Source of the DNA: Phycisphaerales bacterium
GTDB lineage: Bacteria; Planctomycetota; Phycisphaerae; Phycisphaerales; UBA1924
Direction of reading: 5' to 3'
NCBI GenBank assembly: GCA_029260345.1
Contig: JAJDDK010000007.1
Location: forward strand, 190,226-254,225
Length of the DNA stretch: 64,000 nt
Shown: piece by piece, positions 3,418 to 9,171 of the stretch
Numbering within the stretch: position 1 is the stretch's first letter
How the letters are laid out: each line of letters starts with the position of its first letter
The notes under the pieces: model-generated
What the model was told of the DNA's origin: nothing
What the model saw: only the letters and a program-made list of their open reading frames with translations
Database searches by the model: none
Program-made: the position numbers and the translations under genes

Positions 3418-4101
3418 TCAGTTCGGCAGGCGCCGGATGTCTTTGTCGAACCCGGCGATCACCAGAACATCGTCCGCCGTCAGGCGGCTGGACGGCTGGG
3501 GCAAATCCACAACGCGCTCTTCAACCTCTTCGGCGCCGGACGCGCTGGCGGAGGGTGTTCGCCGCTTGATCGCGACGATGGTCACGTTGTGCTTGTTGCG
3601 AAGGTCGAGTTCCGAGAGCGTCCTGCCGCGCCACGCCTCGGGCGTCGGCATCTGCACAATCGCGTACCCCTCGCCAAGCTCCACGTGATCGATGATGAAC
3701 GGCGAGAGGAGCCGGTTCGTCCAGCGATCCGACGATTCATCCTCGGGGTTCACCACGTTGTCGGCGCCGATGCGGCTCAAAATCCGCGCCTGCATGTCAT
3801 TCGCTGACCGCGAAATCACTTTGTTGACGCGCAAGTTCTTCAGCAGCACCGTTGAAAGCGCGTTCGCCTCAAAATCGTGCCCCATGCAGACCACGGCGCA
3901 ATCGACCTGATCCACACCCTGCAATCGCAGCGCCTGCTCGTCGGTCGCATCAAGCGCAACGGCAAGTGTGACCTGATCGCGCAATTCCTCGACGATGCGC
4001 CGGTCACGGTCAATGGCGATGACTTCCGCCCCTTTGGCGGAAAGGTTGCGCGCCAGTCGCGAGCCGAAGCGGCCCAACCCGATGATTGCGAATCTTTCCA
4101 T
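3418..4101 (-). CDS. ktrA: KtrA/TrkA-type potassium channel regulatory subunit (RCK_N + RCK_C)
   Basis: Cytoplasmic NAD(H)/nucleotide-binding gating subunit of a K+ uptake system. The N-terminal Rossmann motif IIGLGRFGSRLA lies near residue 7 and is followed by an acidic D in VIAIDRDR at the end of beta-2; a TrkA_C domain follows from about residue 140 to 225. At about 227 residues it has one RCK unit, the KtrA layout rather than the doubled E. coli TrkA. The ATG at 4101 is preceded by GGGAG at a good distance; the alternative TTG at 4113 overlaps that site. It lies 46 bp downstream of the membrane subunit on the same strand, so the two probably form an operon. Confidence 0.92.
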   Translation of the reverse strand: MERFAIIGLGRFGSRLARNLSAKGAEVIAIDRDRRIVEELRDQVTLAVALDATDEQALRLQGVDQVDCAVVCMGHDFEANALSTVLLKNLRVNKVISRSANDMQARILSRIGADNVVNPEDESSDRWTNRLLSPFIIDHVELGEGYAIVQMPTPEAWRGRTLSELDLRNKHNVTIVAIKRRTPSASASGAEEVEERVVDLPQPSSRLTADDVLVIAGFDKDIRRLPN

Positions 4102-4147
4102 CTGCGCTCCCAAGCCTACCGGAGCGGCGCTGGTTGCGCCCTCCGCA

Positions 4148-5911
4148 TCAGTAGATCACGACATCCTCGACCGGATATTCGTAATTGGGCTGGCGGGCGC
4201 GGCCGATCGCGAACAGCGCCGCCATCACCGCCAGCGGACCGACGCGCCCAAGAAACATCGCGACTCCGATGGCGATCTTTCCCGGCACGCCAAGATCCGA
4301 CGTGATGCCCATGGACAGCCCGGTGGTCCCAAATGCGCTGGTCGCCTCAAACAAGTACGGCCCGAGCGTCGGTGATTCACCATTGCCTTCCGTCGCCACC
4401 AGCACACCCGTCACCAGCATGACCACCGCAAGCGACATGACAATCAGCGTGGCGCTCTTGCGCACCAGTTCATCCGGAATCGTGCGCCCAAACGCTTCCA
4501 CCCGCGGCTTGCCGCGCAGTGTGGACCACACCGTCAGCGCGAGCACCGCGAACACCATCATCTTGATGCCGCCCGCCACCGAGGCCGGCGAGCCTCCGAT
4601 GAACATCAGCAAAATCAGCGTCAATCGCGACAACAAACCCATGTCCTGCGGCGCGATGGTGTTAAACCCCGACGTGCGGTTAATCGTCATGAAGTGCGCA
4701 TCGAGCAGCACCGCATTCAGCGGCTGGTTGGTCTGTGTGCCTTCACCAATCAGAATCAAAATGAATCCGAGCAGATACACCGCCACTGTGGTGAAGAGCA
4801 CGATTTTGGTGTTCAGACTGAGCCGGATCAGCGAACCGTTGTAAGAACGAATACCGCGCACTTTCGCCCAGAACACGCGCCGCAAATTGTCGAGCACCGG
4901 AAAACCAATGCTTCCGAGCACGATGAGCCCGACAATCACGATCTGGCTCGTCCAGTTGAATCGAAGCCCTTCCATGCTGTTGGACGTCGTCGAAAACCCG
5001 GCGTTGCAGAAGGATGAAACCGAGAAAAACACCGCGTGATACAGGCGGTCCAGCGGCGTATGGGTCGGGTCGTTCGCCCACGGCGACCCCGGCCAGTTGT
5101 CCGGCCAGCCGATGAACAGCACCAGCGCGCCGATCGCCTCCACGAGATGCGTAATGACAATGATGAACACGACGAGGCGCTGCAACGAGAGCTGCCCCGT
5201 CCATCCCTGTTCAGTGCTTTCCGCCATCGTTTGCGTCGCGCGCAGGCCGAATGACGACCCGATCACTTGCGCGAGCAGCGCGCCGAACACCAAAATGCCC
5301 AGCGCCCCGACCTGAATCCAGATCAGAATGATGATTTGTCCGAATCGTGTGAATCCTTCACCAGTCGGACGCACGATCAGCCCGGTCTGACTGATGGCGC
5401 TCGTGATCGTGAACGATGCGTCCAGCACACCGATGGGCATGTCTGGGGGCGTCGCCGCCGGCAGCATCAGCCCCGCCGTTCCAACCGCGATCAACACCAC
5501 GAATGAACCGACAAACACCAAACCTGTGGAAATGTCCGTCTGGACCACCTGCAAGTACAGCTCAAGCAATTGGTGCAGCACCAACAGTCCAACGATGATC
5601 GACAGCGCCGATGGCGACCAAAAGAGGACGAGGCCGAGCAGCAGCACGATCGATTCATATGTGTGCGTCCGAAAGAGCGAACCAAACGTTCGCTTGGCCA
5701 TGCGGTTTGGAACGATGAGCAGGGCGGCGTACGCCACCAGCCCCACCATCTCTACCGCCACCAAGAAGGAAGCGCTCAGCAGCGGCTCATGCCACCCAAT
5801 GCGCAGAATGATCGCCAGGCCCGCAACCACCGCCGCCGCGAATCGTGACCATGCCCAGCCTCGAGTTTCAGACGTGCGGCCCTGAAGCCGCTGCGTCGAG
5901 CGCACTGCCAT
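4148..5911 (-). CDS. ktrB: TrkH/KtrB-type potassium uptake membrane subunit
   Basis: Integral membrane K+ translocating subunit, 587 residues. The four selectivity-filter loops can be picked out: SQTGL (about 174-178), CNAGF (302-306), RTSGF (412-416) and GTTGL (528-532), plus the family motif GGSPASVAGGIK near 439-450. The first about 130 residues are extra hydrophobic helices before the first pore repeat, so it is longer than a typical KtrB (about 450) and close to longer TrkH forms. It is followed by ktrA and preceded by the sigma-like gene with only 33 bp between them, so all may be cotranscribed. No Shine-Dalgarno is visible before the ATG. Confidence 0.92.
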   Translation of the reverse strand: MAVRSTQRLQGRTSETRGWAWSRFAAAVVAGLAIILRIGWHEPLLSASFLVAVEMVGLVAYAALLIVPNRMAKRTFGSLFRTHTYESIVLLLGLVLFWSPSALSIIVGLLVLHQLLELYLQVVQTDISTGLVFVGSFVVLIAVGTAGLMLPAATPPDMPIGVLDASFTITSAISQTGLIVRPTGEGFTRFGQIIILIWIQVGALGILVFGALLAQVIGSSFGLRATQTMAESTEQGWTGQLSLQRLVVFIIVITHLVEAIGALVLFIGWPDNWPGSPWANDPTHTPLDRLYHAVFFSVSSFCNAGFSTTSNSMEGLRFNWTSQIVIVGLIVLGSIGFPVLDNLRRVFWAKVRGIRSYNGSLIRLSLNTKIVLFTTVAVYLLGFILILIGEGTQTNQPLNAVLLDAHFMTINRTSGFNTIAPQDMGLLSRLTLILLMFIGGSPASVAGGIKMMVFAVLALTVWSTLRGKPRVEAFGRTIPDELVRKSATLIVMSLAVVMLVTGVLVATEGNGESPTLGPYLFEATSAFGTTGLSMGITSDLGVPGKIAIGVAMFLGRVGPLAVMAALFAIGRARQPNYEYPVEDVVIY

Positions 5912-5944: not shown

Positions 5945-7573
5945 TCAGCGAGGAGACGTTTCGCGAATTCGCCGCAGCGCCGTCCGTTCGACCGCCCCAA
6001 CACGCCGCACGGTCACCGCGAGCTGGTCGGCGATGTCCTGAATCGTCATCGGAGCGTCGCCTTCCGCGCCCCAGCGCCGCACCATCACCGCTCGCTCCAG
6101 TTCGGTGAGACGATCCATCCCATGCAGCATTTGCGGCGGATATTCGATCCATGGTTGCCACGGCGCCAGTCGCTGCGTCCAATCGGACAGCGTGGCGCCA
6201 GCCGCCTTGGCCCGGCCACCCGTCGTCGGCAAATCCTGCGCCTGTCGATTCATCCATGACACCACGGCCCGATCGACCGCGATGCCCGTGACGGCGGCAA
6301 GTCGCCCTCCTTTGGAGCTGTTGAATCGCCATGCGGATTCGGCCGCGGCATCAAGAGCGGTCGCGTGCAGCGAGCGCAACGGGCCAGCTGGCAATTCCAA
6401 GAGGGGCCGATCCACGCGCGCTTCGATCGCGTTCAAAATGAACAGCCACTGCATTCGGACCAGTTTCGCGATGAGCCGCGTCACCCATCGCGCGTCCGTT
6501 TCGGCCCGGTCCAGCGACTCGGTGGTGGGCGTCGCACTTTCGTCGGCGCCGATGGCAACGATGCGCGTCAACAGTGCGCGCTGAGCGGCATTGATCGCGC
6601 GCTCCACTTCACGCGAGGGCGGCGCCGTGTTCTTCGCCGCCTCGACAAACTCCCCCGCCGTCGTCGCAACCGGCCACTGCAATCCCGATCGGACAATGTC
6701 CGCTTCCAGCGCCTGCTCGTCGAACGCGCGCATGAGTTGATCGCGCTGAATCCCAAGTTGCGCTATGCCGTTTCGCAGCGTCGCGGCTCGCTCCTGACGC
6801 AGGATGCGCCGAATCGTCGCCGGTGATTTCTCGTATTTTTCCGCAAGTCGACTGACTGTGGCCCCTGCGCGCGATGCACGGAGCGCCACGCGCCGGACAC
6901 GATCCTGCCGCGCAATGGCGGTCTTGGCGCCGCCGGCTTTGAGCAGCGTTTGCCGCACGCCCTCATGCGATCGATGTTCGCGCTCAGCAATGCGCCGCGC
7001 CACTTCATTCAGCGACCAGCCGAATCGTCGCCGAGCCCGATTGGCGAGCCGCACAAGTCGATCCCGATCGGACACGCTTAATCGCGTGACCGCGCCGGCG
7101 GATGCGATTTCACGCGTATGAGTGCGTTCGTATGCCTCGACCGAATCCAGCGGAAACACCAACCTGGTGCGGCCATTGTCGCGCACGCGCAGCGCGATCA
7201 ATCCCGCGCGCCGGTATCGCTCGATCGTGCGTGCGCTCACCGACCATCGTGATTCGAGGTCGCCAAGCGAAAGGAACGACATCTCGATCGATTCGGAATC
7301 AAGCCCGGCATGTTCACTGACATGCTCGGTAAATGCAGAAAGATCGCGGCGCAATGCTTCGCCGACGACGACCGCTGGTTCATCAATATCCGGCCGGTAT
7401 CCCGTAATGCGCTGGATCAGCCACTCTTCGGGGTAGAGCTGCGATGCATCAAGTTCTGCGGCGAGTTCAATCGCGCGTCCAAGCTGCTCGATTGTGCGCT
7501 TCTTGGGCGCATAGCGCAATTGCGATGCGAGATCGTTCAAGACACTCAGCCGCAGCGCGCTCAGTCGCGGCAC
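5945..7573 (-). CDS. Sigma-70-like / MerR-type multi-HTH DNA-binding protein
   Basis: 542 residues, predicted cytoplasmic DNA-binding protein. Visible parts: a MerR-type helix-turn-helix around 101-150 (SLGDLESRWSVSARTIERYR, then RAGLIALRV); two further HTH-like stretches near 185-212 and 236-262 (VSRLAEKYEKSPATIRRILR); a segment near 385-442 that resembles sigma region 2 (AWRFNSSKGGRLAAVTGIAV aligns with the usual KFDxxxGxxFSTYAxWWI pattern but lacks its aromatic residues); and a region-4-like C-terminus near 488-540 (LTELERAVMV, then IQDIADQLAVTVRRVGAVE). It starts 1 bp after mqnA ends and ends 33 bp before ktrB. It may be an unusual sigma factor or a regulator derived from one. Its targets cannot be inferred from sequence. 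Confidence 0.75.
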   Translation of the reverse strand: MPRLSALRLSVLNDLASQLRYAPKKRTIEQLGRAIELAAELDASQLYPEEWLIQRITGYRPDIDEPAVVVGEALRRDLSAFTEHVSEHAGLDSESIEMSFLSLGDLESRWSVSARTIERYRRAGLIALRVRDNGRTRLVFPLDSVEAYERTHTREIASAGAVTRLSVSDRDRLVRLANRARRRFGWSLNEVARRIAEREHRSHEGVRQTLLKAGGAKTAIARQDRVRRVALRASRAGATVSRLAEKYEKSPATIRRILRQERAATLRNGIAQLGIQRDQLMRAFDEQALEADIVRSGLQWPVATTAGEFVEAAKNTAPPSREVERAINAAQRALLTRIVAIGADESATPTTESLDRAETDARWVTRLIAKLVRMQWLFILNAIEARVDRPLLELPAGPLRSLHATALDAAAESAWRFNSSKGGRLAAVTGIAVDRAVVSWMNRQAQDLPTTGGRAKAAGATLSDWTQRLAPWQPWIEYPPQMLHGMDRLTELERAVMVRRWGAEGDAPMTIQDIADQLAVTVRRVGAVERTALRRIRETSPR

Positions 7574-7574
7574 G

Positions 7575-8429
7575 TCACGACATCCATGTGATGTGACGGT
7601 CGCATTCGATCAGGCGGGATTCCGCGCACTCGGCGCAAAAACGCTCTATTGAAGCGCGTTTGTGTTCGCAAAGCTCGGTGCAAATCGTTTTGTCGAGATA
7701 CACCTGCGCATCATGTGGCGTCCAGCCATGCGCCTCGGCGCAGTGGTGCGCCACCCAGCCGATGCGCGACCGGTTGTGCCGGCGCTGCCGATCGAGCAAT
7801 CGCGCGGCGCGCCGCACAACCTCGGCCTCTGCGCGCGACGACTGACAGACCCACGCGGCGAACACGAACGGCAGGCCCGTCCATTCTTTCCAGGCGCCGC
7901 CAAGATCGAGCACATGCGGAAATTCGCTCGCATCGGGCGCTCGGCGCTCTACTTTGTCACCGATCATCAGCACTGCGTCTTCGGTGATCCCGTCTTCCAA
8001 CATCGCAGTGATCGACTGCACCGCACGAGAGATTGTGGGCGAAGCGCCGTGAACGCGCGTCAAGAGAACCGTCGCCAGCGCCACACTTGTCTTGCTGTCC
8101 GGGTCGGCGACGAGATGTCGAATCTTGTTGAATGGCGCGCGGCTGAACACTTTGACGCTGCGAGTCGCGCCGTCAGACGCAATGCAGCCAACCGGCAAGA
8201 CCGCGAGCGGCTCGGGGGATTGCATCGCATCAAGAATCGGCGCCAGAGCGACATCCGCCCGTTCCTCCAGCAAGGCGCCGAGCAGTCGGCTCGGAACGTC
8301 AAAAGACAATTCGACGTCGCGGCACTTCTCCAGCCCCTCCACGAGAGGACGAGTGTTCAGATAGCTCACCGCCCCGATTCGCACCGGGCGTGTCTCAGTG
8401 GCGGGCTCTTGCATTGCAGTCGCGGTCAT
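7575..8429 (-). CDS. mqnA: Chorismate dehydratase MqnA (futalosine menaquinone pathway)
   Basis: Dehydrates chorismate to 3-enolpyruvylbenzoate, the first step of the futalosine route to menaquinone. Family hallmarks seen: RIGAVSYLNTRPL near the N-terminus, ELSFDVPSRL, ADVALAPI, and FVFAAWVC in the second lobe. The reading frame continues upstream to 8678, but the conserved part begins right after ATG 8429 (MTATAMQEPA), with ATG 8414 as an alternative. No good Shine-Dalgarno is seen at either. The length of about 284 residues fits the family. Other mqn genes are not in the window. The sigma-like gene follows after 1 bp, a strong sign of cotranscription. Confidence 0.92.
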   Translation of the reverse strand: MTATAMQEPATETRPVRIGAVSYLNTRPLVEGLEKCRDVELSFDVPSRLLGALLEERADVALAPILDAMQSPEPLAVLPVGCIASDGATRSVKVFSRAPFNKIRHLVADPDSKTSVALATVLLTRVHGASPTISRAVQSITAMLEDGITEDAVLMIGDKVERRAPDASEFPHVLDLGGAWKEWTGLPFVFAAWVCQSSRAEAEVVRRAARLLDRQRRHNRSRIGWVAHHCAEAHGWTPHDAQVYLDKTICTELCEHKRASIERFCAECAESRLIECDRHITWMS

Positions 8430-8547
8430 ATGGCAATCGTAGACATCTGCGCCGAAAAGCGTGTTTCGGTCGCATGACCGCCTCATCTCCGCGCGCACGC
8501 TGGACGCGTGACGCCTTCGCCGTGATGATGCGATGCAGGCACACCAC

Positions 8548-9171
8548 ATGGCTTCGCAAGACGATGGAATCTTGATTGTTGGGGGCGGCGGGCACGCACT
8601 GGTCGTGGCCGACGCCGCACTGGTGGCGGGAATGCCGGTGACCGGCTTTCTTGATGATCGCCCCGATGCGCGGCTCACCCACCGCCTGCAGCGGGTCGGC
8701 GGGTTTAGCCTCCTTCAACAGCGTGAACTCGGCCAGCAGCACCCGATGATTCTTGGCCTCGGCGACCTGTCGATGCGCCGTGAACTGATCAGTCGTCTCG
8801 AAGCGCGGCTCGCCACCGTCATCCACCCGACCGCCATCGTTTCTGAAACCGCGACCATCGGCGCCGGCGTCTACATCGGCCCCGGCGCGATCGTGCATGT
8901 CAGCGCGCGGATTGACGATCACGCGATCATCAACTCCGGCGCGATCGTCGAACACGACTGCATCGTCGGCGTCAATTCGCACGTGGCGCCCAACGCGACA
9001 CTTGGCGGGGACGTCACCATCGGGCATGACACACTCGTTGGCATCGGCTCGACCGTCCTGCCCGGCGTGCATGTCGGCGACCGATGCATTGTCGGTGCCG
9101 GGTCATCGGTGATTCATGATGTGGAATCGTCGCGCACCGTGGTCGGCGTGCCTGCTCGTGACCTTGAATAG
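8548..9171 (+). CDS. NeuD/PglD-type left-handed beta-helix sugar O/N-acyltransferase
   Basis: Acetyl- or acyl-transferase of the NeuD/PglD family, used in surface sugar or sialic-acid-like modification; the exact substrate is unknown. The N-terminal Rossmann-like domain opens with ILIVGGGGHALVVADA. The C-terminal half has hexapeptide repeats (ATIGAGVYIGPGAIVH, GAIVEHDCIVGVNSHVAP) and ends with VVGVPARDLE, typical for the family. ATG 8548 is preferred; ATG 8533 would add MQAHH. It diverges from mqnA. No glycan cluster surrounds it, so the pathway is open. Confidence 0.88.
   Translation: MASQDDGILIVGGGGHALVVADAALVAGMPVTGFLDDRPDARLTHRLQRVGGFSLLQQRELGQQHPMILGLGDLSMRRELISRLEARLATVIHPTAIVSETATIGAGVYIGPGAIVHVSARIDDHAIINSGAIVEHDCIVGVNSHVAPNATLGGDVTIGHDTLVGIGSTVLPGVHVGDRCIVGAGSSVIHDVESSRTVVGVPARDLE

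Follow-up and report, generated by a model that had tools for sequence, protein, structure and literature searches.

The window, that is, the whole 64,000 nucleotide stretch of Phycisphaerales DNA that was analysed, carries a gene whose predicted product joins an N-terminal array of helix-turn-helix (HTH) units to a C-terminal half related to sigma70-family factors (Table 1). An earlier note had placed the limits of this gene correctly, as judged by the open reading frame listing, and had not stated the strand, which is minus. The gene spacings it gave are also correct: 1 bp separates the gene from the mqnA-like open reading frame, which ends at 7575, and 33 bp from ktrB, which starts at 5911.

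Table 1. Features at the locus, with positions numbered along the window and residues along each protein.
Feature	Position	Strand	Remarks
HTH-sigma-derived protein	5945..7573	minus	542 aa, GTG start; dN/dS under 1
N-terminal domain (N-domain), residues 1-95	7289..7573	minus	RxTGxR at residues 55-60 conserved in the order
HTH1 (HTH_17/MerR-like winged HTH), residues 98-152	7118..7282	minus	Pfam score below cut-off, AF2 model, residue table
HTH2, residues 163-215	6929..7087	minus	AF2 model; R207 in nearly all rows
HTH3 (homeodomain/resolvase-like), residues 223-268	6770..6907	minus	Pfam, AF2 model
Degenerate sigma 1.2-2 domain, residues 304-446	6236..6664	minus	Predicted fold kept (AF2); melting aromatics and D/E-G-N lost
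Sigma region 4, residues 483-538	5960..6127	minus	Predicted fold kept; four of the five 4.2 positions compared are replaced
mqnA-like gene (Pfam VitK2_biosynth)	7575..8678	minus	Directly upstream; first ~80 codons probably non-coding
ktrB (TrkH)	4148..5911	minus	Downstream; linked in few relatives only
ktrA (TrkA_N/TrkA_C)	3418..4113	minus	Pfam

A MerR-type HTH had been proposed for the front of the protein. An HTH can be placed there, at residues 102-150, and in the AF2 model it is followed by two strands and then by further HTHs. The MerR-type assignment itself stays under the Pfam cut-offs in the window protein (HTH_17, 21.3 versus a cut-off of 27; MerR_1, 13.7 versus 21.6; MerR, 10.5 versus 28.2). 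A relative from the same order, L045, clears the cut-offs of MerR models. The additional HTHs that had been suspected are indeed present; there are two, at about residues 163-268. Residues R119, G124 and L125 of HTH1 are found in all 71 rows compared, and R207, R256 and R262 are kept in most of them. A profile of HTH2-HTH3 matches PDB entry 2lvs (E 4.3e-6), and the profile search of the PDB with the N-terminal half gave matches at the level of HTHs only. A search for DNA motifs near the operon produced weak repeats only, and no DNA target was found.

A sigma factor is the component with which RNA polymerase begins the transcription of genes. The D/E-G-N motif of region 2.2 has a role in binding to core polymerase and the aromatic residues of region 2.3 have a role in promoter melting. 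Residues R584, E585, R588 and Q589 of Escherichia coli are taken here to be the readers of the -35 element in region 4.2. In the window protein, the region 4 reported in the earlier note proves genuine, with a Pfam Sigma70_r4 score of 35.4 bits against a cut-off of 24.1 over residues 486-538. The same model has 30 matches in the host genome, including one in an RpoD-like gene (L001) that passes the RpoD C-terminal model; because the host holds this gene, the window protein is not the primary sigma factor. Region 2 of the window protein has no Pfam match. The NCBIfam models with matches to the window protein are sigma models, which have their best stretch in region 4 and lie far under their cut-offs. 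TIGR02937, taken as the test for an ECF sigma, scores 25.7 against a cut-off of 42.9. This model is passed by the canonical relatives L097 (105.8) and L113 (122.6), both of which also bear a 1.2-like segment.

At the amino acid level, the residues expected of a functional sigma factor are absent from the window protein. Residues T-A-L stand at the positions of the 2.2 D/E-G-N motif, and L, V and I at those of the melting F, Y and W, in agreement with the earlier reading of a region 2 layout without melting aromatics. In region 4.2, the five positions compared are V, R, R, G and A, versus K, E, R, R and Q in 17 of 17 rows from outside the order. The four reader positions are thus V, R, G and A, and the neighbouring R586 is retained. 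The changes at the 2.2 motif and in region 4.2 had escaped the earlier note.

The sigma half has the predicted fold of a sigma factor. Structure prediction had been set beforehand as a check on the sigma assignment, with the lack of a sigma2/sigma4 fold as a refuting outcome. This outcome did not arise, and residues 304-446 were modelled as a sigma 1.2-2 fold. The full-length AF2 model, built with 75 rows, has a pLDDT of 93.2, and 135 residues within 304-446 superimpose on E. coli sigma70 (7n4e) at 2.6 Å with a Z of 10.9. A control model of residues 300-542, built with 54 rows (pLDDT 92.7, pTM 0.89), places 133 residues on residues 96-447 of E. coli sigma70 (9ynp) at 2.5 Å with a Z of 13.6; Z values in VIA-align can reach about 13 between unrelated helical bundles. 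With both models, all 50 matches listed in each of the Foldseek and VIA-align tables are entries with a sigma factor, and the best Foldseek E values are modest (1e-3 and 5.5e-4 for the two models). These fold tables bear on the sigma half and not on the N-terminal half. The restriction of the listed fold matches to sigma entries, together with homology through relatives, is a stronger argument than the fold scores.

For the control, seven canonical and two partial relatives were removed, which left 65 trimmed rows; 53 of these and the window protein were used. No row among the 54 has two or more melting aromatics, and the D/E-G pair is found in none. Recovery of the same fold from this canonical-free control argues against AF2 having merely copied canonical relatives in the alignment, although AF2 was trained on solved sigma structures and the control model is not independent of these. 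Sigma ancestry of the window protein is thus supported by homology and by the predicted fold. Kinship with transposases or with unrelated regulators, which the earlier note had named as a refuting outcome, is ruled out by relatives that bear sigma regions 2 and 4 and by the sigma entries of the fold tables.

Of 200 genomes from the host's family and order, 190 have a relative of the gene, mostly as a single match. Internal TGA codons occur in two of the listed matches (G046 and G091). A wider search with a profile of residues 1-268, the N-terminal part, gave matches in 110 of the 118 class genomes from outside the order and in 121 of the 392 phylum genomes. Scoring in the phylum search was limited to six candidates in each genome; strong genes may therefore have escaped it, and its last matches are weak. 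The usual architecture, in a set from which ten duplicate or partial loci were dropped before counting, consists of the N-domain, three HTHs, a linker, a 1.2-like segment, region 2 and region 4. No region 3 is seen between the last two. A Phycisphaerales-type member beside an mqnA-like gene is also found in a genome titled 'Cyanobacteria bacterium CYA' (L174), and this record or bin looks mislabelled.

The sigma features are lost in a graded manner among these relatives. Pfam Sigma70_r2 matches 31 of the 32 relatives from outside the order and 5/5 members of family f5. The corresponding figures are 1/9 in f6 (E 0.0013), 0/12 in f2-f4 and at most 1/40 in f1, the host's family (25 of 29 families listed). 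The melting F, Y and W occur together in 28/32 outside rows and in 5/5 f5 rows, and D/E-G-N is also found in 28/32 outside rows. The outside group of 17 rows was chosen from 26, and the remaining 9, with 6 same-class rows, complete these 32. Family f5 is imperfect at the 2.2 motif, with D/E-G in 4/5 rows and N in 2/5. The 28 rows of f1 have a single F and no Y or W at the melting positions, with G of the 2.2 motif in 3 rows and N in none. The nine f6 rows show F in 7, W in 3, G in 6 and N in 1, and all nine f6 proteins examined end shortly past region 2, without region 4. In f1-f4 the 4.2 readers are mostly replaced, with f3 and f4 represented by one row each in the residue tables. The melting loop of f1 is itself a conserved L-A-A-P-like stretch, in which F has changed to L in 23/28 rows and Y to P in 16/28. 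Because the replacement stretch is conserved, this loop looks reshaped and not the product of noise.

The pattern of conservation is reversed between the two groups. Among the 17 outside rows, sigma2 and sigma4 are the best-kept parts (mean identities of 66% and 62%, versus 41% for the N-domain). Among the 28 f1 rows they are the least-kept (35% and 31%, versus 43%), and sigma2 is about as conserved as HTH2-HTH3 (36%).

Pfam counts for Sigma70_r4 (32/40 in f1, 6/12 in f2-f4 and 3/9 in f6) include matches to the N-terminal HTHs; for example, L115, which has no region 4, still obtains a Sigma70_r4 score at residues 243-269. The presence of region 4 was therefore judged by residue tables and protein ends. 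L115, a member of family f84 with no close short sigma, has lost region 4. No region 4 is seen in L119 and L120, but their contigs end there and they were left out of the region 4 counts. In family f97, four of seven complete members (L263, L265, L267 and L268) do not have the melting Y and W and have an intact region 4.

A quick tree of the N-terminal part, calculated without 11 f1 rows, places f5 between f6 and f1-f4 (support 83). A single clade of all degenerate rows is not rejected (p-AU 0.70), and even scored higher than this tree, in a topology test from which 7 more long or odd rows were omitted, so that the order may have seen one decay or two. Loss of region 4 requires two changes on the tree, one in f6 and one in L115. 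Of five pairs run for dN/dS, the two closest gave 0.19 and 0.30; the other three (0.39, 0.87 and 0.31) are too distant to be trusted. By part, the two closest pairs gave 0.23 and 0.18 for sigma2, 0.26 and 0.50 for region 4, and 0.14 and 0.20 for the N-terminal part.

A second, shorter protein has to be considered together with the long one. The host genome encodes a sigma of 357 aa (L229; C6:768239-769309) with the 1.2-2-4 layout and no HTH module, and with Pfam scores of 44.5 bits for region 2 and 58.1 bits for region 4. Its melting set retains F and Y and has R in place of W. It also retains a stretch like the linker that joins HTH3 to region 1.2 in the HTH-sigmas, and six short sigmas of family f7, which lies in the same class outside the order, likewise retain a linker-like stretch. 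At E<=1e-50 the short sigma is found in 193 of 200 order genomes, and 185 of the 200 have both the long and the short gene. At E<=1e-41 it is found in 42/43 order genomes of the phylum sample and in 1/349 others, this one being of f7; within the class outside the order, it is present in 11/13 f7 genomes and 0/105 others. In 19 of 20 outside genomes that are not f7, the best match to the short sigma is the HTH-sigma gene itself, and several genomes outside the order have weaker short-sigma-like genes of about 80-106 bits. A second short sigma, 42-48% identical to that of the host, is found in G122, G124, G126, G132, G136, G147, G150 and G155.

The short sigmas form one clade (100/100) on a long stem among the HTH-sigmas (fork 93/91), in a tree that carries a long-branch warning and from which degenerate rows were left out, so that the placement is weak. 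Uniting them with f5 is not rejected (p-AU 0.24). The short sigma appears to share ancestry with the HTH-sigmas and is likely to be the paralogue that relieved the long protein. Since f5 and L122, the one f7 member examined, hold both a recognisable HTH-sigma and a short sigma, the order of events suggested is duplication first and loss second. Decay is, as far as these comparisons go, not strictly tied to the short sigma. The f97 members that have lost Y and W are in genomes without a short sigma at E<=1e-41. Six of the order genomes without a short sigma are f1 (G031 and G071 are 93% and 95% complete), and some f1 genomes with a decayed copy, such as G031, are among them. These genomes, with f97 and L115, indicate that loss can occur without the paralogue, or that the paralogue was itself lost or missed.

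The earlier note had also linked the gene in one transcription unit with mqnA and ktrBA. The mqnA part of this linkage extends across the order. Of 107 order loci, 81 have the mqnA-like gene immediately upstream, and in 74 of these the gap is approximately -28 to 50 bp. Loci with less than 1.5 kb of upstream sequence, duplicates and six loci from outside the order were excluded from the count, and protein starts are approximate. The linkage is common to families with recognisable, stripped and region-4-less proteins. Outside the order, an mqnA-like gene was within reach in none of 32 loci examined. Linkage to ktrBA is local only: among 145 loci, which include duplicates and differ in length, ktrB was seen in 9.

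The identity of the mqnA-like gene is by Pfam only, as it has no NCBIfam match at 1e-4. Two VitK2_biosynth genes are found in each of the eight genomes checked (six from the order and two from outside), except that G140, one of the order genomes, has three. In the six order genomes the linked copy scores under the best one; in the host the linked copy (G000:C7:197845-198606) has 141.6 bits, versus 231.1 bits for the other (G000:C4:322352-323155). Because it is the lower-scoring copy and is unnamed by NCBIfam, the linked gene need not be a plain MqnA enzyme. About 80 extra N-terminal residues of its open reading frame overlap a divergent gene at 8533-9171. The true start is probably near 8430, which would leave a short promoter region shared with the divergent gene. 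Outside the order, no non-antisense cluster is a common neighbour in more than 6 of 30 loci. A same-strand gene that is presumably tuf, named from its start, is found 2-4 kb downstream in 5/30 of these (L110, L117, L133, L134 and L136).

The interpretation that we judge most probable is that the window protein was once a sigma70-family factor. Its short paralogue would probably have taken over that role, and the long protein would have been retained, in one operon with the mqnA-like gene, as a regulator that binds DNA. This interpretation draws on sequence comparison and models: the ancestry, the predicted fold, the residue losses, the conserved DNA-binding half, the short sigma, the gene order and the low dN/dS. 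The ancestor would have carried an N-domain and three HTHs ahead of sigma regions 1.2, 2 and 4, with region 3 lacking, and proteins of this kind persist in other planctomycetes. A short stand-alone sigma, apparently of the same ancestry, is present in the Phycisphaerales-type order and in family f7. Across most of the order, the long protein would have shed features that a sigma is taken to need: region 4 in f6, and in f1-f4 the melting aromatics, the 2.2 motif and the majority of the -35 readers. It would no longer programme RNA polymerase alone. Instead it may act as a DNA-binding regulator through the N-domain and HTHs, perhaps with the reshaped sigma-fold half as a platform for protein contacts or dimerisation. 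Possible targets are its own operon or those of the short sigma. A regulator built on a retired sigma seems the most economical reading of the window protein's role.

The earlier note had offered two options, a sigma factor that needs another melting factor or a repurposed regulator. The sigma ancestry common to both stands, by homology and fold, and the losses extend beyond melting and favour repurposing, since they also take in the 2.2 motif, most of the 4.2 readers and, in the f6 proteins examined, the whole of region 4. At the same time, region 4 of the window protein passes Pfam and sigma2 in f1 is about as conserved as HTH2-HTH3, which indicates that the sigma half retains some function and leaves room for a sigma whose residues have changed. 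A working sigma with shifted residues and specificity, aided by a separate melting factor, would agree with this, with the intact predicted sigma folds and with the sigma2 dN/dS values of the two closest pairs. Such a sigma would nevertheless have to function with replacements at the 2.2 motif, at every melting aromatic and at four of the five 4.2 positions compared. The host also has a short sigma whose regions 2 and 4 score well, the short sigma is present in nearly all order genomes, and the f6 relatives have no region 4. A working sigma appears very doubtful. Plain decay of a functionless gene on its way out would account for the graded loss of sigma features and for the internal TGA codons of G046 and G091; the near-universal retention of the gene in the order, dN/dS well under 1 in close pairs, invariant HTH residues and the conserved gene order make it extremely unlikely.

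Two other readings give the sigma half a partner. The long protein may act as a sigma mimic, its sigma half binding an anti-sigma shared with the short sigma and thereby freeing the latter, and its N-terminal half serving as a sensor or DNA anchor. A sigma2-sigma4 fold that is kept and constrained after loss of the core and promoter residues would suit this role, as would a short sigma that appears to be of shared ancestry, and a described precedent is PhyR, a sigma mimic that acts in the general stress response of alphaproteobacteria (PMC4598750). However, inspection, without a family search, of the open reading frames beside the gene and within 1.5 kb of the host short sigma disclosed no obvious anti-sigma, Pfam gives no receiver match in the window protein at E up to 1, and the f6 proteins without region 4 would weaken mimicry of a full sigma. 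We consider mimicry quite improbable. The other is a sigma split by duplication, in which polymerase binding and promoter melting fall to the short sigma, and the long protein, with the ancestral DNA-reading array, uses its sigma-fold surface to recruit or steer this partner. This reading seems rather unlikely; it would amount to a two-protein sigma with promoter-address and melting parts on separate genes across a bacterial order.

The retired-sigma interpretation can be set beside known systems. With the sigma70 alternative factors (regions 1.2, 2 and 4) the window protein shares ancestry, domain order and the predicted sigma1.2-2 and sigma4 folds. It differs in the added N-domain and three HTHs, with no region 3 seen, and f1-f4 differ further in having no 2.2 motif or melting aromatics and in the replacement of most 4.2 readers. 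The likeness to PhyR is in a sigma2-sigma4-like part retired from sigma use and fused to another module, as predicted for the window protein; the difference is that PhyR has a receiver domain and the window protein has a DNA-binding array. HTH1 with its two strands resembles the MerR/HTH_17 units, whose models L045 passes, but in the window protein it is under the cut-off, is one of three HTHs and is joined to a sigma fold. The short planctomycete sigma (L229) resembles the window protein in its linker and shares the 1.2-2-4 layout; it has no N-terminal module, and its regions 2 and 4 are good by Pfam. No description of the HTH-sigma family, and no experiment on it, was found in the open-licence literature, as covered by titles and the starts of abstracts and by passages of PMC10632474, PMC6461901 and PMC4598750, and prior mention is possible.

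The family offers a graded series within one phylum, from a recognisable sigma (most members outside the order, and f5), through a stripped sigma2 (f1-f4), to the absence of region 4 (f6). To our knowledge, intermediates on the way from sigma factors to non-sigma proteins are rarely seen. The series allows tests of which sigma features vanish first after a second copy arises, and of the later uses of the sigma fold, and the likely relieving paralogue, the short sigma, can be named. A change at the other end of the protein is seen in two relatives of 370 aa from family f53 (L127:2621-3733 and L128:2280-3392), in which the N-domain is joined straight to the sigma part. As the whole three-HTH block is absent from both, gain or loss of the HTH array can take place in one piece.
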